Assembly: GCF_030063285.1 (NCBI RefSeq)
Contig: NZ_JASISU010000002.1
Span: forward strand, 434,001-498,000
From: Pseudarthrobacter sp. PS3-L1
GTDB lineage: Bacteria > Actinomycetota > Actinomycetes > Actinomycetales > Micrococcaceae
Reading direction: 5' to 3'
DNA: 64,000 bases
In this document: positions 1 through 14,103 of the stretch, in pieces
Layout of the letters: every line of letters begins with the position of its first letter
How positions within the stretch are numbered: position 1 is the stretch's first letter
The notes under the pieces: model-generated
The model's database searches: none
What the model was told of the DNA's origin: nothing
What the model saw: the letters and a program-made list of their open reading frames with translations, nothing else
Translations under genes and position numbers: made by a program

Positions 1-355
1 GCTGGTCAAACAAGATAGTGGCCCGCTGCTCAATACGGTTGGCCAAGTGGATCATGCCGAGCAGCGGCAAGGGAAAATCGTCGCGATTGAGGACGCTCAT
101 GGCAACTGGAAAGGCCATCGCGTGGAGGAAGCCTGCGGGTAGTTCGTCGCTGGCGGTCTCCCCCAGCAGGTGCTGGAATGCTGTGAGCGTTGCAACGTCC
201 GTCCGGACACCACGCACCTCGTGGCTCACCAGCGGAAGGCTCAGGCGCGGGGGTCCTCCCGTGAGGCGTCGACGGGCAGCTTCGCCCGCAGCATTGAGGT
301 ACAGCTTCGACAGCGATGGAACCTCAGCCAGGATGACGCTTCCCGTGGTGCTCAT
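1..355 (-). CDS. MaoC-like (hot-dog fold) dehydratase, N-terminal part
   Basis: The reverse strand is open from an ATG at 355 to the window edge, giving about 118 residues (MSTTGSVILAEVPSLSKLYL...). The stop of the upstream fabG-like gene overlaps this ATG as ATGA, so the two are probably translationally coupled. The N-terminal part resembles actinobacterial MaoC-domain 3-hydroxyacyl-thioester dehydratases such as mycobacterial HtdX, which also follows a long FabG. The catalytic Asp/His hydratase motif would lie beyond the window edge, so activity cannot be checked. In context it would supply the dehydratase/hydratase step beside a ketoreductase, a thiolase and an acyl-CoA oxidase. The family call rests on partial sequence plus neighbourhood. 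Confidence 0.75.
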   Translation of the reverse strand, partial: MSTTGSVILAEVPSLSKLYLNAAGEAARRRLTGGPPRLSLPLVSHEVRGVRTDVATLTAFQHLLGETASDELPAGFLHAMAFPVAMSVLNRDDFPLPLLGMIHLANRIEQRATILFDQ

Positions 356-1692
356 GCTCCCACCATATTTTGGCCGCACACACGCAGGACGTCGCCAGTG
401 ATTCCCGCTGCCGCATCACTGGCAAGGAATGCGATGGCTTCTGCGACATCTCCGGGCGTCCCGCCCTGTTGCAAGGAGTTCAGCCGGCGGGCCACCTCAC
501 GGGTCGCAAACGGAATCCTGGCCGTCATTTCGGTTTCGATGAAGCCTGGTGCCACAGCGTTAATGGACCCGCCCCATGGCGCCAGAAGCGGCGCAGTCGC
601 CTGGACCATGCCGATGACGCCGCCCTTGGACGCTGCGTAGTTGGTCTGACCGCGGTTGCCAGCAATGCCGCTGGTGGACGCCAGGGAGATAATCCTGGGG
701 CCATCCCGGAAGTGCTCCGAGTCCAGGAGCGCTCTGTTGATTCTCAGCTGGGCTTCACAATTGATGGAAATCACCGAGTTCCAGCGCTGCTGGTCCATGT
801 TGGCCAGGAGCTTGTCGCGCGTGATGCCAGCATTATGCACCACAATATCCAGCCTGCCATGGCGGTCAATGGCGTGCTCGATGATGCGTTGGCCAGCGTC
901 GGGGCTGGTCACATCAAGCTGTAGGGCTGTCCCGCCAATGCTGTTTACGACGGCGGCAAGCTGCTGACCAGCGGCCGTCACGTCCACAGCCACAACAGTT
1001 GCGCCATCGCGGTACAGCGTGCGGGCAATTGCCGCCCCAATGCCTCGCGCAGCTCCCGTAACAACAGCGACCTTACCCTCCAGGGGGCGGTCGTGGTTGA
1101 GGGTGGGGCTGCCGGCGTCGGACGTCACGGTCAAGAACTGGCCGTCCACAAAGGCCGAGCGTCCCGACAGGAAAAAGCGGAGGGCGGCCAGTGCGGAGGT
1201 GCTGGTGGTCAGTGTCTGGGGTGCCAGTAGCACGCCGTTGGCTGTGGCGCCGCCACGGAGCTCCTTGGCCAGCGAGCGCACCAGGCCGTCAACTCCCTGG
1301 CGGGCTGCAGCCTGGGCAGGATCCGCCGCGTCGGCCGCTGTCCGGGACACACTCAGGACCCTGGCGTTGGGCATGAGGTCACGTAGCGATGACCCGACAC
1401 CGAGGACAGGTACCTCTAGGTCGGCTGGCGTCCTGAGTTCGTCCAAGACCAGGATGATGGCACCGAGTTTTTCCTTGGGCACCGCGTGCCGACGAATGTC
1501 CAGGTCCCAGCTCAGGAGTTCAGTGGCCAGTGCGTCTGCTCCGGCTCCGGAACCTGTGACCAGCACGGGGCCGGTCAGGAGTGGCTGTCCGGGGCTGTAG
1601 CGGCGCAGGTTAGCTGGTTGTGGCAGGCCCAGCTGACGGGCGATTTTCCGGCCAGGTCCAGTGCTGATGAAGGAGCTGTATGGATCACTCAC
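352..1692 (-). CDS. long 3-oxoacyl-ACP/CoA reductase (FabG4-like SDR)
   Basis: This 446-residue protein is much longer than an ordinary FabG (about 245). The C-terminal half is a complete classical SDR: TGAARGIG at 212-219, NAG at 287-289, and a catalytic triad of Ser339, Tyr352 and Lys356 (YAASK). The N-terminal 200 residues look like a degenerate Rossmann domain (LVTGSGAGADAL near 45), as in high-molecular-weight FabG (mycobacterial FabG4). It should reduce 3-oxoacyl thioesters with NAD(P)H, or run in reverse in beta-oxidation. It starts 9 bases after the thiolase stop and overlaps the MaoC gene by 4 bases, so the three genes form an operon. Substrate chain length cannot be told from sequence. 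Confidence 0.88.
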   Translation of the reverse strand: MSDPYSSFISTGPGRKIARQLGLPQPANLRRYSPGQPLLTGPVLVTGSGAGADALATELLSWDLDIRRHAVPKEKLGAIILVLDELRTPADLEVPVLGVGSSLRDLMPNARVLSVSRTAADAADPAQAAARQGVDGLVRSLAKELRGGATANGVLLAPQTLTTSTSALAALRFFLSGRSAFVDGQFLTVTSDAGSPTLNHDRPLEGKVAVVTGAARGIGAAIARTLYRDGATVVAVDVTAAGQQLAAVVNSIGGTALQLDVTSPDAGQRIIEHAIDRHGRLDIVVHNAGITRDKLLANMDQQRWNSVISINCEAQLRINRALLDSEHFRDGPRIISLASTSGIAGNRGQTNYAASKGGVIGMVQATAPLLAPWGGSINAVAPGFIETEMTARIPFATREVARRLNSLQQGGTPGDVAEAIAFLASDAAAGITGDVLRVCGQNMVGA

Positions 1693-1701
1693 GGCTGCCC
1701 C

Positions 1702-3126
1702 CTACGCTGCTTCGAGAAGAGCTACGACACCCTGGCCGCCAGCGGCGCAGACTGAGATCAGGCCACGCGCGGGGCGGCCGTCAACGCTGCCCTTCTGGTG
1801 CAGCATCTTGGCCAATGTAGCCACAATACGTCCTCCGGTGGCGGCAAAGGGGTGCCCGGCGGCGAGGGATGAACCACAACTATTGAGCTTGGACCTATCC
1901 ACCGTGCCGAATGCCCCGGAAAGCCCCAGCCTGTCCTGGCCAAATTCTGGGTCCTCCCAGGCTGCAAGGGTGGACAGGACAGTGCCGGCGAATGCCTCGT
2001 GGATCTCGAAGAAATCAATGTCCGCCAACGTCAGGCCGTTTCTGGCAAGAAGCCGTGGCACGGCGAACGCAGGTGCCATCAGCAGTCCGTCCTTTCCATG
2101 GACGAAGTCGACAGCTGCGGCCTCGCCATCAACGACGGACGCGAGGACGGGAAGGTCGTGTTCCCGGGCCCAGTCCTCGGAGGACAGCAGGACTGTTGAC
2201 GCGCCATCGGTCAGCGGCGTTGAGTTACCGGCCGTCATGGTCGCCGCCGACCCAAGATTCTTTCCGAAAACAGGCTTGAGTGCAGCCAGTTTTTCCATCG
2301 AGGTGTCTGCCCGGAGGTTTGAGTCCTTGGCGAGTCCGCGGTAGGGCGTGAGTAGATCGTCAAAGAAGCCATCAGCATAGGCTGCGGCCAGATTGTGGTG
2401 GCTCTTCAGTGCCAGGTCGTCCTGGGCTTCGCGCGTGATGTTCCACTGCGCCGTGGTCAGGGCCTGGTGCTCACCCATGGACAGTCCGGTCCGAGGCTCG
2501 CCGGTATCCGGTGCATCCGGGGAGAGGTCCTTGGGCCGGAGGCGGCTAAGGATCTGCAGGCGCTTCTGCAGTGTTTTTGCCCTGTTGAGTTCAAGAAGGA
2601 CTGTACGCAGTCCCTCACTGACTGCAATCGGGGCATCGGAGGCCGAGTCCACTCCCCCAGCGATACCAGAGTCGATCTGGCCCAGGCGAATCTTGTTGGA
2701 CAAGCCAAGAACTGTTTCCAGGCCTGTTGCACATGCCTGCTGAAGGTCGTAGGCGGGGGTTTCGGCAGATAGGGCTGAGCCTAGGACGGCTTCCCTGGTG
2801 AGGTTGAAATCGCGGGAGTGCTTGAGGACAGCGCCCGCCGCCACTTCACCGATGCGTTCGTTCTGCAATCCGAAGCGCGCAATCAGGCCGTCAAGGGCCG
2901 CCGTCAACATGTCCTGGTTGGACGACTTGGCATAGGCACCACCGGAGCGCGCAAAAGGAATCCGGTTTCCACCGACAATAACTGCCCTCCGCAGCCCAGC
3001 GCCGGATACCTCCGGTCCCCCCGCCTGGTCTGGGCGCGCACCAGCCGGGTTGCCTGGGGTACTGGATACCGGGCCGTGGCCGGTTGGTTCCTGGGTGCTG
3101 TGGGCGGACAGTCCTGCAGCGGACAC
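1702..3126 (-). CDS. acetyl-CoA acyltransferase (thiolase, FadA/FadI type)
   Basis: A 474-residue thiolase. The nucleophilic Cys is in QQACATGLE, the HEAFAG motif follows, GHPFAATGG supplies the catalytic His, and the second Cys is in SVCAAGGQG near the C-terminus, so all thiolase active-site blocks are present. The GTG start at 3126 is supported by GAGGAG about 6 bases upstream. The first 45 residues are a Pro/Gly-rich extension before the conserved core (RRAVIVGGNRIPF). It catalyses thiolytic cleavage of 3-ketoacyl-CoA or the reverse condensation. It is first in the minus-strand operon thiolase-fabG-maoC and diverges from the TetR gene across a shared palindrome. Confidence 0.9.
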   Translation of the reverse strand: MSAAGLSAHSTQEPTGHGPVSSTPGNPAGARPDQAGGPEVSGAGLRRAVIVGGNRIPFARSGGAYAKSSNQDMLTAALDGLIARFGLQNERIGEVAAGAVLKHSRDFNLTREAVLGSALSAETPAYDLQQACATGLETVLGLSNKIRLGQIDSGIAGGVDSASDAPIAVSEGLRTVLLELNRAKTLQKRLQILSRLRPKDLSPDAPDTGEPRTGLSMGEHQALTTAQWNITREAQDDLALKSHHNLAAAYADGFFDDLLTPYRGLAKDSNLRADTSMEKLAALKPVFGKNLGSAATMTAGNSTPLTDGASTVLLSSEDWAREHDLPVLASVVDGEAAAVDFVHGKDGLLMAPAFAVPRLLARNGLTLADIDFFEIHEAFAGTVLSTLAAWEDPEFGQDRLGLSGAFGTVDRSKLNSCGSSLAAGHPFAATGGRIVATLAKMLHQKGSVDGRPARGLISVCAAGGQGVVALLEAA

Positions 3127-3157
3127 GTGGATCTCCTCATGCTGGGAATCAAGTTAT

Positions 3158-3190
3158 CGATACCCAGCGTACCTGATACGCTGGGTATCG
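3158..3190. promoter_or_regulatory. palindromic operator in divergent tetR/thiolase promoter
   Basis: Two 14-base arms, CGATACCCAGCGTA (3158-3171) and its exact reverse complement (3177-3190), surround the 5-base spacer CCTGA. The right arm contains TACGCT (3177-3182), a TAnnnT -10-like hexamer 7 bases before the GTG of tetR, so the arm would cover both the -10 element and the start site. Because the site is symmetric, the same hexamer also reads toward the thiolase gene. Size and placement fit a TetR-family operator that controls both directions. Binding by the adjacent TetR is inferred. Confidence 0.75.
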
Positions 3191-3960
3191 TGAACGAGAC
3201 GAGGGATAGAGCAGCACCTACCGCACCAGCTGGCACGGCACCCCTGGACAGCCCTGACGGCAGATCAACGCGCTGGGATACCCACCGCGAGGAACGACGT
3301 CGTGAGTTGATCAAAGCAGCACGGGGTGCGGTGCATGCTTTGGGGAGCGATGCGTCCATGGAAGACATCGCCGCATCCTGTGCCACGTCGAAGTCCGTCT
3401 TCTACAGGTACTTCGGGGACAAGGCTGGGCTGCAGCAAGCCGTGGGAGAAGTTGTCCTGCTCCAGATGCAGCGCAAGATCGCAGACGCCGCGCAGGCCGC
3501 CCAGACACCCCGCCAGGGCATTCATGCAATGGTGTCCGCCTACCTGCAGATGGCCCAAACCAGCCCCCGGGTCTACACCTTTGTTACCGCAGCGGGAGAT
3601 TCCCCGTATCCGGCAGGCAGCCAGAACCGGGACCAGGGGAAAAAAGCCGACACGTCAGCCAGCCCAACGGCACTGGGGCATTTTTTCGATGAAATCTGCG
3701 CCATGATTGCCGGACCAATGCGTGCACTGCTAGCTGGCACACCGCACGGTGATTCGGTGCTTAGCTACTGGCCCACGGCAGCAATTGGCATGGTGCGCAA
3801 TGCCGGTGAGCTCTGGCTGAGCGCCGCCCCGTCTGCGACCAAACCCGATCACGAGGCCATGGCCCGGCAGATCACCGCTTGGCTCTGTTTGGGCGTTGCT
3901 CCCGATCTTGACACCTCCGCCAGCTCAAAAGACAATCCCACCAAAGTCCAGAACCAATGA
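3190..3960 (+). CDS. TetR family transcriptional regulator
   Basis: A 256-residue regulator. The DNA-binding helix-turn-helix lies around residues 50-85 (MEDIAASCATSKSVFYRYF, then GDKAGLQQAV), preceded by an Arg-rich stretch, and a variable ligand-binding C-terminal domain follows. The reading frame is open upstream to 2818, but GTG 3190 is chosen because it fits the domain start and lies 7 bases after a -10-like TACGCT, suggesting a leaderless transcript. No Shine-Dalgarno site is visible. Its stop overlaps the first possible ATG of the acyl-CoA oxidase gene. It probably represses both its own operon and the divergent thiolase operon, with an acyl-CoA as a plausible ligand (inference). Confidence 0.85.
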   Translation: MNETRDRAAPTAPAGTAPLDSPDGRSTRWDTHREERRRELIKAARGAVHALGSDASMEDIAASCATSKSVFYRYFGDKAGLQQAVGEVVLLQMQRKIADAAQAAQTPRQGIHAMVSAYLQMAQTSPRVYTFVTAAGDSPYPAGSQNRDQGKKADTSASPTALGHFFDEICAMIAGPMRALLAGTPHGDSVLSYWPTAAIGMVRNAGELWLSAAPSATKPDHEAMARQITAWLCLGVAPDLDTSASSKDNPTKVQNQ

Positions 3961-3971
3961 AGGGCAGTGAC

Positions 3972-6131
3972 ATGACGCAAGTTTCCAGCCAGAGGAACCC
4001 TGCCGAGACAAAGCCGGGCCGTACCCGCGGCACCAAGGGCACCACCACCTCAAGTGAGCGCGGCCGGAAACCAGTGTCGGCTGCCCATTCGGTGCCCACG
4101 CCCACCGTGGACGTCGCAGCACTCGGCGAACAGCTGCTGGGAAAGTGGGCTGACGTGCGCCGCCAGGCGCGTGCCCTTGCCGCCAAGCCCGAGCTGCACA
4201 AGATTGAGGGCCAGACACATACCGAACACCGCCAGCGCACGTTTGAGCAGCTCAACTTCCTGGTGGAAAACAATGCGGTGCATAGGGCCTTCCCGGCTTC
4301 CCTGGGCGGCAACGATGACCATGGGGGCAACATCGCGGGGTTTGAGGAACTCGTCACAGCGGACCCCTCCCTGCAGATCAAAGCCGGTGTCCAGTGGGGC
4401 CTGTTCGGCTCTGCGGTAATGCACCTGGGAACGGCCGAGCACCATAAAAAGTGGCTGCCGGGCATTATGAATATGGATATTCCCGGCTGCTTTGCCATGA
4501 CCGAGACGGGGCATGGATCGGATGTCGCCAGCATTGCCACCACAGCTACATACCACCCCGATACCGAAGAGTTTGTCCTGCACACCCCCTTCCGGGCGGC
4601 CTGGAAGGACTATATTGGCAACGCGGCAATTGATGGCCTCGGCGCGGTTGTTTTCGCCCAGCTGGTTACCCGGGACGTGAACCATGGCGTCCATGCCTTC
4701 TACGTTGATCTCCGCGATCCACAGACGAAGGAATTCATGCCGGGCATCGGCGGCGAGGATGACGGCGTCAAAGGCGGCCTAAACGGTATTGACAACGGGC
4801 GGTTGCACTTCAGTCACGTAAGGATTCCCCGCACCGACCTTCTGGACCGGTACGGCAGCGTTGCCGCGGATGGAACATATGACTCCCCCATTGCAAGTCC
4901 TGGGCGGCGGTTCTTCACCATGCTCGGAACCCTTGTCCAGGGCAGGGTTTCCTTGGACGGAGCGGCAGTAGCGGCTGCGAAGATTTCCCTCAAGGCCGCC
5001 ATCCAGTACTCCACGGAGCGTCGGCAGTTTAATGCATCATCAGCCATTGAGGAAGAGGTACTGCTGGACTACCAGCGGCATCAACGTCGGCTCTTTACCC
5101 GCCTGGCCACCACGTACGCGGCAAGTTTTGCACACGAAAAACTACTGACGAAGTTTGACGATGTCTTTTCCGGTGCGCACGACACGGATGCAGACCGACA
5201 GGATCTGGAAACCCTGGCCGCAGCTTTTAAGCCGCTGAGTACGTGGCACGCCCTGGACACACTCCAGGAATGCCGCGAAGCCTGCGGCGGTGCCGGGTTC
5301 CTGATCGAGAACCGGTTCGCTTCCCTCCGCGCGGACCTCGATGTGTATGTCACGTTTGAAGGCGACAACACAGTACTGCTGCAGTTGGTGGCCAAACGGC
5401 TCCTTGCCGACTATGCCAAGGAATTCCGCGGCGTGGACGTGGGAGTTCTGGCCCGGTACGTTGTGGGCCAGGCTGCAGGCGCCGCTGTCCACCGAACCGG
5501 CCTGCGGCAGGTAGCGCAGTTTGTTGCTGACACCGGTAGCGTCCAGAAGGCAGCGCTGGCCCTCCGCGACGAGGACGGCCAGCGCGCCCTCCTGACCGAC
5601 AGGGTACAGACAATGGTGGCTGATGTTGGCGGCGCACTGCGCGGGGTCAACAAAATGTCCAAGGAGCAGGGCGCTGCACTGTTCAACCAGCACCAGAACG
5701 AACTTATCGACGCTGCCCGGGCCCATGCCGAACTTCTGCAGTGGGAAGCCTTCACCGAAGCACTGCCTGCCGTTGCTGATGACGGAACACGCCAGGTACT
5801 GACCTGGCTACGGGACCTCTTTGGCCTCTCCCTTATCGAAAAGAACCTTTCCTGGTACCTCATGAACGGACGCCTTTCGATGCAGCGGGCACGCACAGTT
5901 GGCGACTACATCAATCGGCTGCTGGTCCGGATCCGGCCGCACGCACTGGACCTGGTGGATGCCTTTGGCTATTCGCCGGAGCACGTTCGCTCCGCCGTTG
6001 CTACAGGTGCCGAAAAGATGCGCCAGGATGAAGCACACGAGTACTTCCGCTCCATGCGTGCCCGCGGTGACGCTCCCATCGACGAAAAGGTCCTTCTGGC
6101 CAGGAAAGCTGCGGCCGCAACCGGAAAGTAG
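3972..6131 (+). CDS. acyl-CoA oxidase/dehydrogenase (ACOX-like)
   Basis: The start ATG 3972 has GAAGGG about 8 bases upstream; an alternative ATG at 3957 overlaps the tetR stop. The protein is about 719 residues, longer than a normal acyl-CoA dehydrogenase (about 380) and close to peroxisomal-type acyl-CoA oxidases. It shows the middle FAD domain signature (CFAMTETGHGSD), an Arg-rich helical domain (STERRQF), and CREACGGAGF followed by TFEGDNTVLLQ, where the Glu near residue 463 matches the catalytic base of ACOX proteins. It should introduce the 2,3 double bond into acyl-CoA. Whether electrons go to oxygen or to ETF cannot be decided here. It likely works with the MaoC, FabG-like and thiolase products. 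Confidence 0.85.
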   Translation: MTQVSSQRNPAETKPGRTRGTKGTTTSSERGRKPVSAAHSVPTPTVDVAALGEQLLGKWADVRRQARALAAKPELHKIEGQTHTEHRQRTFEQLNFLVENNAVHRAFPASLGGNDDHGGNIAGFEELVTADPSLQIKAGVQWGLFGSAVMHLGTAEHHKKWLPGIMNMDIPGCFAMTETGHGSDVASIATTATYHPDTEEFVLHTPFRAAWKDYIGNAAIDGLGAVVFAQLVTRDVNHGVHAFYVDLRDPQTKEFMPGIGGEDDGVKGGLNGIDNGRLHFSHVRIPRTDLLDRYGSVAADGTYDSPIASPGRRFFTMLGTLVQGRVSLDGAAVAAAKISLKAAIQYSTERRQFNASSAIEEEVLLDYQRHQRRLFTRLATTYAASFAHEKLLTKFDDVFSGAHDTDADRQDLETLAAAFKPLSTWHALDTLQECREACGGAGFLIENRFASLRADLDVYVTFEGDNTVLLQLVAKRLLADYAKEFRGVDVGVLARYVVGQAAGAAVHRTGLRQVAQFVADTGSVQKAALALRDEDGQRALLTDRVQTMVADVGGALRGVNKMSKEQGAALFNQHQNELIDAARAHAELLQWEAFTEALPAVADDGTRQVLTWLRDLFGLSLIEKNLSWYLMNGRLSMQRARTVGDYINRLLVRIRPHALDLVDAFGYSPEHVRSAVATGAEKMRQDEAHEYFRSMRARGDAPIDEKVLLARKAAAATGK

Positions 6132-7514: not shown

Positions 7515-7584
7515 AGTGTGAACAAACCGGGCTGACCGGAAGATCTTTTTAAAGGCATGACGAAGAAGTACGGGAGTGACCACA

Positions 7585-8970
7585 ATGGTGTCGAAGAAGG
7601 TCCTGGCAATTGTCCTCGCTGGTGGCGAGGGAAATCGGCTCATGCCACTGACCGCAGACCGGGCTAAGCCCGGTGTCCCCTTTGCCGGAAGTTACAGGCT
7701 TATCGACTTTGCGCTGTCGAACCTTGTCAACTCCCGGTACCTGCAGATTGTTGTACTGACGCAGTACAAGTCACACAGCCTCGACCGGCACATTTCCGAG
7801 ACCTGGCGCATGTCCACCCAGCTCGGGAACTATGTTGCCTCTGTTCCGGCCCAGCAGCGTGTGGGCAAGAGCTGGTTCCTCGGGAGTGCCAATGCGATTT
7901 ACCAGTCCCTCAACCTGATCCATGACGCGAATCCAGATATTGTCGTGGTGGTGGGCGCCGACCACGTTTACCGCATGGACTTCGCCCAGATGGTGGAGCA
8001 GCACATTGCCAGTGGAGCCAAGGCAACGGTGGCGGCTGTTCGTCAGCCGCTGCATATGGCAGACCAGTTCGGCGTGATCGAGGTAGATCCCCATGATCCC
8101 CAAAAGATTGCTGCCTTTGTGGAAAAGCCGTCCTCTACGCCAGCACTCGCCGCGGATCCCACAGCGTTCCTGGCGTCCATGGGGAACTACGTTTTTGATG
8201 CCGACGCCCTGGTCGAGGCGTTGCACGCCGATGCCGAACGCCTGGACACCAAGCACGATATGGGTGGGGACATCATCCCCTCGTTCGTGAACCTGGGCCA
8301 GGCCGGCGTGTACGACTTCACCCTCAATGACATCCCAGGTTCAACGGAGCGGGACAGGACCTACTGGCGCGATGTCGGCACCATCGACTCCTTCTACGAT
8401 GCCCATATGGATCTGATCTCTCCGCTTCCGGTGTTCAACCTGTACAACTCCGAATGGCCGATCTACACGCGGCAGAGTATCTCCCCACCGGCGAAGTTTG
8501 TGCGAGGCGACCAGAACACCGTGGGCATGGCACTGGATTCTATTGTCTCCAGCGGCGTTGTTGTCTCCGGTGGCGTGGTGGAGGGCTCCGTGCTGTCCCA
8601 TGATGTCTACATCGGCATGGCAAGCCGGGTCATCGATTCGGTCCTGATGGACAAGGTGAACATTGGCGCCGGTGCCGTCATCAAGCGCGCCATCCTGGAC
8701 AAGAACGTCAAGGTTCCAGCGGGGGCCACCATTGGCCTGGACCACGACCTTGACAGGGCCCGCGGCTTCAAGGTCACGGACTCCGGCATTACGGTCCTCT
8801 CCAAGGGACAGCACGTACCCGAACCCGACGACGCTGAACGTGCACTCGCCGCCGCGAACCTGCACCTGGTACCGGACTCGGTGCGCACGGCAACGGAAGG
8901 TTACCCGGACATCCGCGACTCCGTGGAGTCAGTCTCCGCCAGCCACGCAGACGCAGCTGCCAAGGCCTAG
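7585..8970 (+). CDS. glgC: glucose-1-phosphate adenylyltransferase
   Basis: ADP-glucose pyrophosphorylase, 461 residues. It makes ADP-glucose from ATP and glucose-1-phosphate, the committed step of glycogen synthesis. The N-terminal nucleotidyltransferase signature is [20 protein letters not shown], followed by the sugar-phosphate region ([10 protein letters not shown]) and [10 protein letters not shown]. The C-terminal third is a left-handed beta-helix (repeats around [14 protein letters not shown]). ATG 7585 is chosen because GGGAG ends 8 bases upstream; the in-frame GTG at 7576 overlaps that ribosome-binding site. A strong terminator follows. It pairs with divergent glgA. Confidence 0.95.
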
Positions 8971-9075: not shown

Positions 9076-9081
9076 TAAAAT
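9076..9081 (+). promoter_or_regulatory. -10-like hexamer for leaderless zinc-ribbon SDR gene
   Basis: TAAAAT lies 7 bases before ATG 9089, so transcription would begin on that codon. There is no Shine-Dalgarno sequence before either ATG 9083 or ATG 9089, which favours a leaderless mRNA. A matching -35 element is not obvious. Confidence 0.45.
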
Positions 9082-9088
9082 CATGTCA

Positions 9089-10540
9089 ATGAGCTCTGCT
9101 GATCTCACGCCTGAAGAAATCCAGGCGTGCCTGAAAGTCCTGAACACCATCCACGTCTATGACGAGGAAGATCCCGACTACGTCGCCATCCGGCGCGCCA
9201 CGGGAAAAATGTTCAAGGCTGTCAAACGACACCGCCGGGTCACCAAGCGGGACCTCATCGCGGAAGCTGACCGCGCAGTAATCGCCCAGACCGCGACAGC
9301 TGCTCCTGATCGCATTGACGACGAAACCCGCGGCAACAAACTGGAGACATCCGCCACGGGCGAGATCGCAGGGCACCTGCTTCGTTCCCGGCCCTGCTAC
9401 ATCTGCAAGAAGCACTACACCCAGGTTGATGCCTTCTACCATCAGCTGTGCCCCGACTGTGCGGCGTTCAGCCACTCCAAGCGAGACGCCCGGACCGATC
9501 TCACCGGGCGGCGTGCGCTCCTGACGGGTGGGCGGGCCAAGATTGGCATGTATATCGCTCTTCGACTGCTGCGCGACGGCGCGCATACCACCATCACCAC
9601 ACGCTTTCCTAAAGACGCAGCCCGGCGTTTTGCCGCCATGGAAGACAGTTCTGATTGGCTGCATCGCCTACGGATTGTGGGCATCGACCTTCGCGACCCA
9701 TCCCAGGTGATGGCGCTGACCGACTCCCTCAACAAAGCCGGCGCGCTCGACATCATCATCAACAATGCTGCCCAGACCGTCCGGCGGTCGGGCTCCGCCT
9801 ACCAGCCCCTCGTCGAGGCAGAAGACGAAGAGCTTCCTGCCGCACTTGACGTTGCCAACGGTGGCCCGGAACTGGTGACCTTCGGACACGCCCATGACAA
9901 GCATCCCCTGGCGCTGGCAAGTTCTGTCATGGACCACCCGGTCCTGGCGGGCGACGCCGTGACATCCCTGGCGCTGTCCACCGGATCGGCGTCACTCGAG
10001 CGGATCGCGGCCGGGACAGCAATCGATGCCGGTGGCCTGGTCCCGGATCTCGCGGGTATCAATAGTTGGACGCAGGTTGTGGATGAGGTCGATCCCCTGG
10101 AGATGCTTGAGGTTCAGCTATGCAACGTTACGGCGCCGTTCCTGCTGGTCAGCCGGCTCCGTGACGCCATGAAGCGGTCTTCAGCCGCGCGCAAGTACAT
10201 TGTCAACGTGTCAGCAATGGAGGGCCAGTTCTCGCGCGCATACAAGGGCCCCGGCCACCCACACACCAATATGGCCAAAGCAGCCCTGAATATGATGACC
10301 AGGACCAGCGCGCAGGAGATGCTAGATTCCGACGGGATCCTGATGACAGCCGTTGATACCGGCTGGATTACTGACGAGCGCCCACACTTCACGAAGGTCA
10401 GACTGATGGAAGAAGGTTTCCATGCGCCACTTGACCTGGTCGATGGCGCAGCCAGGGTCTACGATCCCATTGTGATGGGTGAACAGGGCGAGGACCAGTT
10501 CGGCGTCTTCCTCAAGGACTACCGGCCCAGTCCCTGGTAG
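9089..10540 (+). CDS. SDR-like protein with N-terminal zinc ribbon
   Basis: A 483-residue protein counted from ATG 9089 (ATG 9083 is the alternative). Residues 1-95 are helical and charged. A zinc-ribbon motif follows: Cys103, Cys106, Cys121, Cys124 (CYIC, then CPDC). A Rossmann SDR domain starts near 140. The cofactor loop is altered: TGGRAKIG at 146-153 replaces TGxxxGxG with a Lys at the middle Gly. The NNAA motif is kept, and a Ser is present in VNVSAMEG, but the YxxxK tyrosine position is Thr (TNMAK). A large insertion lies between the NNAA motif and the Ser strand. I recall close relatives in Streptomyces and know of no assigned function. It may bind NAD(P) without classical dehydrogenase chemistry, or use another catalytic residue. 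It stands alone between two terminators. Confidence 0.8.
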   Translation: MSSADLTPEEIQACLKVLNTIHVYDEEDPDYVAIRRATGKMFKAVKRHRRVTKRDLIAEADRAVIAQTATAAPDRIDDETRGNKLETSATGEIAGHLLRSRPCYICKKHYTQVDAFYHQLCPDCAAFSHSKRDARTDLTGRRALLTGGRAKIGMYIALRLLRDGAHTTITTRFPKDAARRFAAMEDSSDWLHRLRIVGIDLRDPSQVMALTDSLNKAGALDIIINNAAQTVRRSGSAYQPLVEAEDEELPAALDVANGGPELVTFGHAHDKHPLALASSVMDHPVLAGDAVTSLALSTGSASLERIAAGTAIDAGGLVPDLAGINSWTQVVDEVDPLEMLEVQLCNVTAPFLLVSRLRDAMKRSSAARKYIVNVSAMEGQFSRAYKGPGHPHTNMAKAALNMMTRTSAQEMLDSDGILMTAVDTGWITDERPHFTKVRLMEEGFHAPLDLVDGAARVYDPIVMGEQGEDQFGVFLKDYRPSPW

Positions 10541-10601: not shown

Positions 10602-11453
10602 TCATGCCAAGCGGGTAATTTCCACCGTGACGGACAAATCCGAGCCGCCGCCACCGGAGAGGATTCCCTTCAGGGGCGGCACATCACGATAGTCCCGGCC
10701 CCTTGCCACGGTGATGTGGAAGTCCCCCGCCGGTTTGTGGTTGGTGGGGTCCCAGCTGCGCCAGTCGCCGTCCCAGAATTCAAGCCAGGCGTGGGACTGG
10801 CCAGCGACGCTTTCACCAATGGCAGCGGATGACCGCGGATGCAGATATCCGGAGACATAGCGTGCGGGGATACCACAGCTTCGCAGCGCCCCGATGGCCA
10901 GGTGGGCTAGGTCCTGGCAGACACCCTGGCGTTGTCCCCACGCTTCTTCGGCATTTGTTGTGACGGCGGTGGAGCCCGACATGTAGGTCATCTCACCGCG
11001 CATCCACTCAAAAACAGCCATTGCAGCGTCATGCGGGTTCTTTCCGGCAACCACGCCCGGGATCAGTGCCAAAACTTCCTCGCCCGGCCCCGTCAACTGC
11101 GACTGCGGAACCCAGTCGCTGAAACGGTCTGTCACCTCATCAGAGGTCATCACGTCCCAGCCAACGATGTCAGCTTCCGCGGGGGTCCGTTCAGACCTGT
11201 GCACCTCAACAGTGATACTGGAAATCACTTCCAGGTGATCGTGCGGCATCTGCATATCGAAGGCGGTGACCCGGGTTCCCCAGTAGTCGCGGTAGGTGCT
11301 CACGGCTGCCTGGGTGGGCGAGACTTTCACCGCCGATTCGAGGACCACCTGCTGGGCATCAGAGAGTGGCGTCATCCGGGCCTCGTTATAGGACAGGGTG
11401 ACCCGCCGGTTGTACTTGTATGCCGTGCGGTGGGCAATACTGAGCCTGCTCAT
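10602..11453 (-). CDS. transglutaminase-like protein of the ATP-grasp/alpha-E triad
   Basis: 283 residues. An N-terminal beta domain of the bacterial transglutaminase N type (RLSIAHRTAYKYNRRVTLSYNEAR) precedes the papain-like transglutaminase core. The catalytic triad is visible: Cys in GVCQDLAH, His in SHAWLEF and Asp in WDPTNH. It may act as a peptidase, an amidase or a cross-linking enzyme. It overlaps the alpha-E gene by 4 bases and is third in a minus-strand operon with a permuted ATP-grasp ligase. Comparative genomics by others links this trio to predicted peptide synthesis or modification. The true substrate is unknown. Confidence 0.88.
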   Translation of the reverse strand: MSRLSIAHRTAYKYNRRVTLSYNEARMTPLSDAQQVVLESAVKVSPTQAAVSTYRDYWGTRVTAFDMQMPHDHLEVISSITVEVHRSERTPAEADIVGWDVMTSDEVTDRFSDWVPQSQLTGPGEEVLALIPGVVAGKNPHDAAMAVFEWMRGEMTYMSGSTAVTTNAEEAWGQRQGVCQDLAHLAIGALRSCGIPARYVSGYLHPRSSAAIGESVAGQSHAWLEFWDGDWRSWDPTNHKPAGDFHITVARGRDYRDVPPLKGILSGGGGSDLSVTVEITRLA

Positions 11454-12376
11454 GAAACTTCTCCCACCCAGGCAAGTTCATCTGCCTGATTGAAGTACTT
11501 ACGGGAAATGGCGTCGGAGGCCTCGGAGACCGCCTTCTGGACCCGTTCCATGTGTTCCGGGAGCTCAGACATGAGGTCGTCGGTGCGGTGGAACTCCAGG
11601 AAGGTCCGCGCCTGGCCAACAATGCGACGGGCATCGTTGATGAAACCCACACGCTGCGCCGACGGGTCGAGTTTGGCCAGCGCCTCGTCGGCATCGCGCA
11701 GCGCGTAGACGATCGAGCGGGGGAAAAGCCTGTCCAGCAGCAGGAACTCAGCCGCATGCTGGTCTCCGAACGCTGCACGTCGGGTGCGCAGGAACGACTC
11801 GTAGGCCCCCGCACAGCGAAGCATGTTGACCCAGGACATTCCCGCACTGAGGACATCACGCGTGCTCAGCATCCGGGCTGTCATATCGGCACGCTCCAGG
11901 GAGCGCCCCAACATCAGGAACAGCCAGCTTTCGTCATGGCTGACAGTGGTGTCTGCAAGGCCGCTGACCATGGCAGTGCGCTCCAGGACCCAATTGCAGT
12001 ACCTGTACGTCCCCACCACGTCCTTGCGGTGCTGGTTAAGGCCGTAATACGTGGTGTTGAGGCTTTCCCACAGACCAGAGGACACTGTCTCGCGGGCACG
12101 GCGTGCATTTTCCCGGGCCGCACCAAGCGAGCCTGCAATAGACGTGGCGCTCGTCTTGTCATATGCCAGGGCGTGGAGCAATTCCGGCAGGCCAAAGTCC
12201 TCGCTGTCGGACCGACCACCCATGACGGCCAGGAGCTCTTGGGCGACGCTTCGCCGCTCATCCATGGGCAGGTGGTTCAGGCGTTCGAGGTGGACGTCAA
12301 GGATCCGGGCAGTACCGTCGGCGCGTTCAACATAACGGCCAATCCAGAACAGGGACTCAGCAATACGGCTAAGCAT
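11450..12376 (-). CDS. alpha-E domain protein (DUF403)
   Basis: 308 residues, nearly all predicted helix. The family signature at the N-terminus (MLSRIAESLFWIGRYVERAD) marks the alpha-E/DUF403 domain, which is found almost only next to permuted ATP-grasp and transglutaminase-like genes. Further conserved stretches are LFLMLGRSLERADMTAR and FLLLDRLFPRS. No catalytic residues are established for the family; a scaffold or accessory role for the ligase is the usual proposal. Its stop overlaps the transglutaminase start as ATGA, and it follows the ATP-grasp gene by 57 bases. Confidence 0.9.
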   Translation of the reverse strand: MLSRIAESLFWIGRYVERADGTARILDVHLERLNHLPMDERRSVAQELLAVMGGRSDSEDFGLPELLHALAYDKTSATSIAGSLGAARENARRARETVSSGLWESLNTTYYGLNQHRKDVVGTYRYCNWVLERTAMVSGLADTTVSHDESWLFLMLGRSLERADMTARMLSTRDVLSAGMSWVNMLRCAGAYESFLRTRRAAFGDQHAAEFLLLDRLFPRSIVYALRDADEALAKLDPSAQRVGFINDARRIVGQARTFLEFHRTDDLMSELPEHMERVQKAVSEASDAISRKYFNQADELAWVGEVS

Positions 12377-12433
12377 TCGTGGCTACCTCCTGGGAGTCCA
12401 GCGTGGGTGGATGAATGGGCGGCAACGGCGTTG

Positions 12434-13990
12434 TCACTGCTGCTGCTCGGACGCTCGATCGCGCCAGTTGCTTTCGACCGGCCAGACCGAGACACGGTCG
12501 CGGACAGTGATGGATTGCCTAGGCACGCGCTCCACGGGTACCTGCGGTGAATCCGCCAGGACCCACGTATCCTTTGAGCCGCCGCCCTGGCTGGAGTTCA
12601 CAATGAGCGACCCTTCCTTCAGTGCCACCCGGGTCAGGCCGCCGGGGAGCACCCAGACGTCGTCGCCGTCGTTCACGGCAAAGGGCCGCAGGTCAACGTG
12701 TCGGGGACCAAATTTGTCGCCGCTGAGCGTAGGGACTGTGGAGAGCTGCAGGACTGGTTGGGCTATCCATCCCCGCGGATCGGCGATGACGCGGCTACGC
12801 AGGGCTGCCAGTTCATCCCGGGTTGCGTCCGGGCCAATCACCAGGCCCTTGCCACCGGAACCGTCAACGGGCTTGACCACCAACTCCGCGAGGTTGTCCA
12901 GGACGTACTCGCGCGCGTCCTTCTCTTCCAGCCGGAACGTATCCACATTCGCGATGACTGGTTCTTCGCTGAGGTAGTACCTGATCAGGTCAGGAACATA
13001 GCTGTAGACGAGTTTGTCGTCTGCCACACCGTTGCCCACTGCGTTCGCAATGGTGACTCCCCCGGCACGGGCCGCATTGACCAGCCCAGGGCAGCCCAGC
13101 ATCGAATCGGAACGGAACTGCAGCGGGTCCAGGAACTCGTCGTCAATGCGCTTGTAGATGACGTCCACGCGCTGCTCACCGGCCGTGGTGCGCATGTAAA
13201 CCCGGTTGCCGCGGCAGATCAGGTCGCGGCCCTCAACGAGTTCAACGCCCATAAGGCCCGCTAGGAGGGTGTGCTCGAAGTAGGCACTGTTAAAAACACC
13301 TGGGGTCAGCACCACGACCACCGGATCGTCCACGCCTGACGGTGCAGTTTTGCGCAGGGCTGACAGGAGCCGTCGCGGATATTCCTCGACGGGCCGGATC
13401 AGTTGTTGTCCGAAAGCCTCAGGCAGGCCCTTTGCCATGGCGCGACGATTTTCAAGCACGTAGCTGACGCCGGAAGGAACCCGCACGTTGTCCTCAAGGA
13501 CCCTGAACGTACCTGCTGCGTCGCGGACCACGTCAATCCCGGAAATGTGCACCCGTACCCCGCCTGCGGGTTCAAAACCCTGCACCGCACGGTGGAAGTG
13601 TGCGCTGGTAGTCACCAGGCTGCGCGGGATGACACCGTCCGCCACCACAGTCATTTTGTCGTACACATCGGCCAGGAACGCCTCCAGTGCACGCACGCGC
13701 TGGGCAACGCCGCGCTCAAGGACGTCCCACTCATCTGCGGGAATGACACGCGGCACAATATCTAGCGGGAACGGACGTTCTTCACCGGCAAAATCGAACG
13801 TTACGCCGCGGTCCAGGAATGTCCTGGCCATGGAGTCGGCACGGGCGCTGACATCGGCGAGCGAAAGTTCGGCAAGAGTATCGGCAACCTGTGTATACGA
13901 CTGCCTGACGCTTTGCCCCGGGGCGAACATCTCGTCATAGGCTCCCGATTTACCTGCGGCAGCGGAGTAATCCTCGAATAGGTCTGACAT
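12434..13990 (-). CDS. circularly permuted ATP-grasp protein
   Basis: About 518 residues from ATG 13990 (MSDLFEDYSAAAGK), which fits the usual family start. In-frame ATGs at 14026 and 14032 would add 12-14 residues, and no strong ribosome-binding site decides between them. It belongs to the DUF404/DUF407-type permuted ATP-grasp group. Visible blocks are VLEDNVRVPSGVSYVLENR, the metal/ATP region VDVIYKRIDDEFLDP, and VVKPVDGSGGKGLVIGP, a phosphate-binding Lys/Gly loop. Such proteins are thought to join a carboxylate to an amine using ATP. It is the first gene of the triad operon and probably its catalytic ligase. Confidence 0.9.
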   Translation of the reverse strand: MSDLFEDYSAAAGKSGAYDEMFAPGQSVRQSYTQVADTLAELSLADVSARADSMARTFLDRGVTFDFAGEERPFPLDIVPRVIPADEWDVLERGVAQRVRALEAFLADVYDKMTVVADGVIPRSLVTTSAHFHRAVQGFEPAGGVRVHISGIDVVRDAAGTFRVLEDNVRVPSGVSYVLENRRAMAKGLPEAFGQQLIRPVEEYPRRLLSALRKTAPSGVDDPVVVVLTPGVFNSAYFEHTLLAGLMGVELVEGRDLICRGNRVYMRTTAGEQRVDVIYKRIDDEFLDPLQFRSDSMLGCPGLVNAARAGGVTIANAVGNGVADDKLVYSYVPDLIRYYLSEEPVIANVDTFRLEEKDAREYVLDNLAELVVKPVDGSGGKGLVIGPDATRDELAALRSRVIADPRGWIAQPVLQLSTVPTLSGDKFGPRHVDLRPFAVNDGDDVWVLPGGLTRVALKEGSLIVNSSQGGGSKDTWVLADSPQVPVERVPRQSITVRDRVSVWPVESNWRDRASEQQQ

Positions 13991-14103
13991 GTAAACCAGA
14001 CAACCATCTTTTTGTTTCAAATTCATTACCATCTAGCTCTGGGGCGTGTTGCTCCTCCGGCCCCAGTTGGGTATTCCGGCTCCGGATACTGCACAGTTGG
14101 GAG

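Follow-up and report, generated by a model that had tools for sequence, protein, structure and literature searches.

The SDR-like gene at 9089..10540 (+) of the window, by which the whole 64,000-nucleotide stretch analyzed is meant, raises the question of whether a member of the short-chain dehydrogenase/reductase (SDR) superfamily can still act as an enzyme when two residues required by the textbook are replaced. Both replacements occur in every copy examined, though annotation says SDR oxidoreductase; two annotated plasmid copies are named "SDR family NAD(P)-dependent oxidoreductase" in public annotation. If the protein is an enzyme, the SDR fold works without the catalytic tyrosine; if it is not, it is perhaps a sensor that is kept by a whole soil genus.

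The ORF of 485 codons extends from 9083 to 10540 (+) and encodes 485 amino acids. It opens at the ATG at 9083, and the second in-frame ATG at 9089, which had been chosen in an earlier note on this DNA, is the better start and is preferred here. A -10-like hexamer, TAAAAT (9076..9081, +), is located 7 nt upstream of ATG 9089, as at other loci, which suggests a leaderless mRNA. The element TAnnnT was found 5-7 nt ahead of an in-frame start at 73 of 120 related loci, counted per locus; the controls, counted per start codon, gave 3 of 370 for out-of-frame starts and 0 of 436 for internal in-frame starts. The 47 loci lacking the element include all 12 titled Nocardia, both Streptomyces plasmid loci, and the close relatives L080, L110, and L128. 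Since TAnnnT is present at 73 loci and absent from 47, a promoter belonging to the gene itself and a leaderless mRNA are probable for many genera, though not for all, with translation starting at 9089 in the window. When 136 upstream regions were searched with consensus patterns for Zur, CIRCE, HAIR, SigR, LexA, NrdR, Rex, and DtxR, typed from recall, nothing shared was found; only three LexA-like, two Rex-like, and two SigR-like matches were obtained, which are counts with no control set beside them.

The N-terminal part of the protein begins with a helical segment according to the models (residues 10-68; 9110..9286, +), and no residue between 1 and 94 is invariant in the family. It is followed by a Cys4 domain (residues 95-138; 9365..9496, +). 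The arrangement CX2C-X14-CX2C is present in the ORF translation as described earlier, the cysteines being C105, C108, C123, and C126. When the N-terminal 142 residues are modelled alone (pLDDT 87), two long helices, a hairpin (95-104/111-116), and a helix (124-138) are predicted, with pLDDT block means of 88-97 for residues 91-140. One CxxC pair, C105/C108, would be situated at the hairpin and the other, C123/C126, at the start of the helix. A zinc ribbon had been proposed for this region; its four cysteines are confirmed, while the name perhaps does not apply, because the modelled hairpin-helix is treble-clef-like. The domain would probably bind zinc, as judged from the cysteines and the model. 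Residues 1-140 had no Pfam match at E up to 0.01, and the PDB sequence search with the Cys4 region gave nothing significant (E 0.14 or worse). Foldseek returned 11 matches for the Cys4 domain, none of them significant (E 3.8 or worse), among them a nuclear-receptor domain, CTCF zinc fingers, and ribosomal proteins; in VIA-align, one of 61 chains was listed, at Z 2.7 and rmsd 12.

By homology and fold, the protein is an SDR; by its motifs, it is not a classical one. Homology is evident from the Pfam profiles adh_short (PF00106; 63.6 bits, cut-off 26.6) and adh_short_C2 (PF13561; 50.9 bits, cut-off 27). The cofactor loop reads TGGRAKIG (residues 148-155; 9524..9547, +) in place of TGxxxGxG, with K153 at the usual Gly position in the HMMER alignments, as the earlier note had pointed out. 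R174 (9602..9604, +) follows strand β2 within the sequence TTR, a position which we take to be typical of NADP 2'-phosphate contact, and may serve this contact here. The NNAG motif is represented by NNA (residues 227-229; 9761..9769, +) within NNAA (227-230). N348 (10124..10126, +) is presumed, from alignment and recall, to be the Asn of the catalytic tetrad. S377 (10211..10213, +), at the end of strand β5 in the sequence VNVSA, occupies the Ser position according to alignment and model. The retention of NNAA and of the Ser strand had been described correctly, and so had the segment HPHTNMAKAA, of which HPHTNMAK corresponds to residues 392-399. In its core TNMAK (residues 395-399; 10265..10279, +), the Lys of YxxxK is kept as K399, and T395 stands at the usual place of the tyrosine, giving T395-x3-K399. 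In HMMER alignments with 4lvu_A and with SiaM (3woh_A), T395 is opposite Tyr and K399 opposite Lys of YxxxK, both within weak stretches of 10.9 and 10.0 bits, respectively; in the latter alignment S377 also falls on the Ser strand. The alignments with the 8hjw and 8aew chains (2.8 and 4.2 bits) slip by one residue and place H394 opposite Tyr. From its alignments and its correct spacing from K399, T395 likely occupies the position of the catalytic tyrosine.

Three further segments distinguish the protein. An insert of variable length (residues 236-335; 9788..10087, +) has 6 of 100 columns invariant and is modelled with low confidence at 276-325. The active-site loop (residues 379-394; 10217..10264, +), marked out by its conservation, contains E380, F383, R385, K388, H392, and P393. 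The C-terminal tail GVFLKDYRPSPW (residues 474-485; 10502..10537, +) carries K478, D479, Y480, and the terminal W485; in two homologues, Phe takes the place of Y480.

Structure prediction, which the earlier note had named as a check, yielded an SDR domain at residues 136-485 in the AlphaFold model of the whole protein (mean pLDDT 75). In this model, residues 136-480 superimpose on tropinone reductases with Z 24.1-24.4 and rmsd 2.7-3.0 over 232-234 residues; two of the three tropinone reductase entries are listed with NADP, and other SDRs are tied with them, trailing by no more than 1 Z unit. The core is of the Rossmann-type α/β kind, the 1000 chains compared all having Z of at least 8 (best 24.4). 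As is usual for SDRs, S377 closes a modelled strand (371-377) and K399 lies inside a helix (393-417). Three stretches have pLDDT <50, namely the loop at 379-391, the insert at 276-325, and residues 429-450; with 379-391 and 429-450 among them, the geometry of the active site is not established by the model.

Conservation was assessed on 178 loci, of which 174 matched at E 1e-20 and provided 142 distinct aligned strings; the four unmatched loci presumably correspond to L002-L005, which are ordinary SDRs in the source genome. Identity among the homologues goes down to about 40%. The residues C105, C108, C123, C126, R151, K153, R174, N348, K388, H392, T395, and N396 were found in 142 of 142 strings, and D202 and NNA of the dinucleotide site in 139 of 139. 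S377 was present in 141 of 142 (one Thr), R385 likewise (one Val), and K399 in 141 of 142, with one row not reaching that position. A pattern scan with LTGGR[VA]KIG and M[NT][SA]VDTGW contributed 79 of the strings, taken from the best 80 of 592 relatives; as its patterns contain K153 or VDTGW, these loci are biased for K153. The other 63 strings came from protein or profile searches (59 genomes, 4 plasmids), independent of both peptide patterns, and have the same Lys and Thr at both positions. In a 39-row alignment, 108 of 485 columns are invariant, and invariance thus shows a constrained family and does not single out K153 or T395. The invariant columns are distributed unevenly: 38 of 95 at 141-235, 8 of 46 in the Cys domain, 6 of 100 in the insert, 10 of 21 at 379-399, and none in residues 1-94. 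In comparisons with 13 close loci, two of which gave identical numbers, dN/dS was 0.02-0.04, a rough ratio since dS of 1.3-1.9 is near saturation. With Lys and Thr in all 142 strings, this ratio, and no string in which Tyr or Gly is restored, which the earlier note had named as the refuting case, its description of a conserved and non-classical protein is upheld. Because the same changes occur in every relative examined, the protein is, on the sequence evidence, a member of an uncharacterised family under selection and not the product of a decayed gene. A divergent second copy, L178:7395-8975, from a 9.2-Mb genome of the same class, is 49% identical over 386 columns; it keeps the four cysteines, K153, and T395, and by its alignment carries Thr in place of S377 and Val in place of R385.

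All 25 genomes examined from the genus, the source genome counted, carry the gene, as do 26 of 39 genomes of the draw that holds those 25, 16 of 61 genomes of one more distant family, and 37 of 396 genomes sampled over the whole phylum, the source genome again counted. Among the best 80 of 592 relatives, the closest named ones are Arthrobacter and Paenarthrobacter, with 93-94% identity. The profile search of the 396 genomes at E 1e-30 returned family members, pieces, the divergent second copy L178, and nothing else; up to four candidates were scored in each genome, and the line at E 1e-30 leaves out ordinary SDRs and intermediates. Of five matching plasmid records, four hold at least 79% of the protein (two Streptomyces, one Tsukamurella, one Deinococcus), and the fifth, with a 19% match, resembles an ordinary SDR. 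The sampling consisted almost entirely of Actinomycetota, the one Deinococcus plasmid lying outside. Among viral contigs, 36 pattern matches were obtained, none of which was a relative. Eukaryotic relatives may exist in fungi and protists. Two loci titled Sporosarcina and Acidobacteria (L078, L079) have copies 84% identical to the window protein and Arthrobacter-like neighbours; they are likely mislabelled or contaminated assemblies. The promoter-like element at 73 of 120 loci together with the presence in all 25 genomes of the genus suggests a stand-alone gene that is kept.

Upstream of the gene, on the same strand, a glgC-type nucleotidyltransferase gene is located (7576-8970; name inferred from Pfam); downstream, at 10602-14032 (-), transglutaminase-like, Alpha-E, and circularly permuted ATP-grasp genes lie side by side. 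Flanking genes of this kind are found again chiefly in close relatives; in those of Arthrobacter, the glgC-type and transglutaminase-type ones appear to reflect local synteny. Neighbours were clustered over 104 loci, those ORFs being countable which had a match in another taxon label; in the all-against-all comparison, L162, and perhaps some of L161, entered mostly as targets. The widest cluster covers 31 loci and 11 taxon labels, 5 of its 33 genes being same-strand, and, as it consists mostly of generic SDR paralogues, an explanation by an operon or a partner gene finds no support. The other clusters that extend over several families are small. Cluster 17 (10 loci, 8 labels, 3 of 10 same strand) resembles, by eye, an ABC-transporter ATPase; the representative of cluster 20 (7 loci, 7 labels, 3 of 9 same strand) may be a spurious frame; and one member of cluster 13 (14 loci, 6 labels, 3 of 14 same strand) is an acyl-CoA dehydrogenase. 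A DUF3516 helicase gene occurs at 13 loci with 7 labels, all of which we take to be Microbacteriaceae, and looks like local synteny. A nucleoside hydrolase gene (e.g., L127:15122-16180) was seen near the SDR gene at 14 loci with 5 labels (Nocardia, Rhodococcus, Hoyosella, Glaciihabitans, and a Tsukamurella plasmid) and shares its strand at 12 of the 14; it may hint at the substrate or may reflect synteny. Elsewhere in the window, at 352-6131, genes for a thiolase, a TetR regulator, an acyl-CoA oxidase, and a 446-amino acid protein whose SDR domain is C-terminal form a cluster of the fatty-acid degradation type.

How are the two replacements to be explained? That the gene is a decayed copy of an ordinary SDR could be argued from the loss of just two textbook residues, and is refuted on the sequences examined: the same two residues are found in all 142 strings, dN/dS is 0.02-0.04, and the gene is present in all 25 genomes of the genus. 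By analogy with what is proposed for NmrA and HSCARG, the protein might instead be a pseudoenzyme that senses NAD(P)(H), its Rossmann domain binding the cofactor and shifting shape and its Cys4 domain contacting a partner protein or nucleic acid. This reading is favoured because the tyrosine is missing, in 142 of 142 strings, and the Cys4 domain is a common binding module, although the fold matches to nuclear-receptor, CTCF, and ribosomal proteins were all non-significant. SDR precedents are CtBP, HSCARG, and NmrA, which are named as SDR-type NAD(P)-sensing regulators in PMC3793261. A pure sensor, on the other hand, need not keep the remaining catalytic positions and the substrate-side loop, which are as constrained as the cofactor side, and at the 104 loci no regulator or partner gene commonly adjoins. 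The earlier suggestions of an NAD(P) sensor or an RNA- or protein-binding protein received no positive support; the retention of N348, S377, K399, and R174 and the 10 of 21 invariant columns at 379-399 fit an enzyme at least as well, and no family-wide neighbour gene at those loci points to a regulatory partner. The sensor is the main rival to an enzyme, though clearly the less probable of the two. Still less probable is an SDR-fold enzyme with non-hydride chemistry of the lyase, epimerase, or dehalogenase-like kind, in which K153 and the loop would form an anion pocket. Positive charge is indeed added by K153, R385, K388, and H392, and halohydrin dehalogenases are, according to PMC4989007, SDR relatives with a nucleophile pocket at the nicotinamide site. 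The dinucleotide side is fully kept, however (NNA and D202 in 139 of 139, R174 in 142 of 142), and PMC4989007 describes the tyrosine as retained in those dehalogenases.

The most likely reading, given about an even chance on the basis of sequence and model, is that of an NADP(H)-binding SDR subfamily with a remodelled Asn348-Ser377-Thr395-Lys399 site, which would still be an enzyme. An enzyme is favoured because the substrate-side loop is conserved: E380, F383, R385, K388, H392, and P393 are invariant or nearly so beside the Thr, which we read as an active site that selection still maintains. On the cofactor side, R174, D202, and NNA are retained, as are three of the four tetrad positions; the fourth, Tyr, is always exchanged for Thr in the examined copies. 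In the proposed mechanism, Asn348-Ser377-Thr395-Lys399 would replace Asn-Ser-Tyr-Lys, and the loop, which exceeds the usual length by four to five residues, would bring in R385, K388, and H392, which would bind a negatively charged substrate. H392, or a water molecule held by Ser377 and Thr395, would supply the proton that normally comes from Tyr. The Cys4 zinc domain and the N-terminal helices would have a non-catalytic function, packing against or pairing subunits. Several points count against the enzyme. The hydroxyl of Thr is a poor general acid compared with that of Tyr, and Lys at the Gly position could mean that dinucleotide binding is altered or blocked. In addition, R385 is Val in the divergent paralogue L178, the alignments of T395 with Tyr are weak, two being shifted by one residue, and no pathway neighbour is common to the family at the 104 loci. 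The full combination, that is, an SDR-fold subfamily in which Tyr catalysis is replaced by Thr395, His392, and the basic loop, with a Lys cofactor loop and coupled to a Cys4 zinc domain, is proposed only tentatively.

A described family with the combination of zinc domain, Lys, and Thr was not found in the searches of an open-access library, where literal peptide motifs matched no paper. With the classical SDRs, such as FabG and tropinone reductases I and II, the window protein shares the order of the Rossmann core, NNA, Ser on β5, Lys on α5, and Asn on α4. It differs from them in Thr for Tyr, Lys for the loop Gly, TG for the PG motif, an insert of about 100 residues, a longer active-site loop, and the added Cys4 and helical domains, the total length being 485 amino acids versus about 250. 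The top PDB profile matches are 8hjw (E 1e-15) and 8hi4 (E 1.4e-13), with two SDR domains summed in each; the listing says "Short-chain dehydrogenase/reductase SDR", and we take them to be malonyl-CoA reductase SDR domains. The cofactor loop of the N-terminal SDR domain is GGAGNIG in 8hjw_A and 8aew_B, and hence the loss of the loop Gly is not unique to the zinc-domain family; an FSR stretch is also common to 8hjw and the window protein. Unlike the latter, 8hjw keeps Tyr four residues before Lys and has no Cys4 in the aligned part; its second-half alignment is weak (2.8 bits).

We know of no Cys4 domain in regulators of the NmrA/HSCARG/MAT2B type. The NmrA family is absent from the seven Pfam families listed for the protein at E up to 1, an absence from a listing that is no proof. 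These regulators resemble the window protein as SDR relatives and proposed NAD(P) sensors, and MAT2B differs from it in keeping YxxxK (PMC3793261). Halohydrin dehalogenases have in common with it the SDR fold and a changed catalytic triad; in PMC4989007, they are characterized by a Ser-Tyr-Arg triad in the motif S-x12-Y-x3-R and by the lack of a nicotinamide site, whereas the window protein has lost Tyr, has kept Lys and the dinucleotide motifs, and reads S377-x17-T395-x3-K399. Judged by this motif, it is not a halohydrin dehalogenase. If the replacement of the tyrosine as proposed here were true, the zinc-domain family would represent a third use of the fold, beside SDR and SDR-like dehalogenase chemistry.
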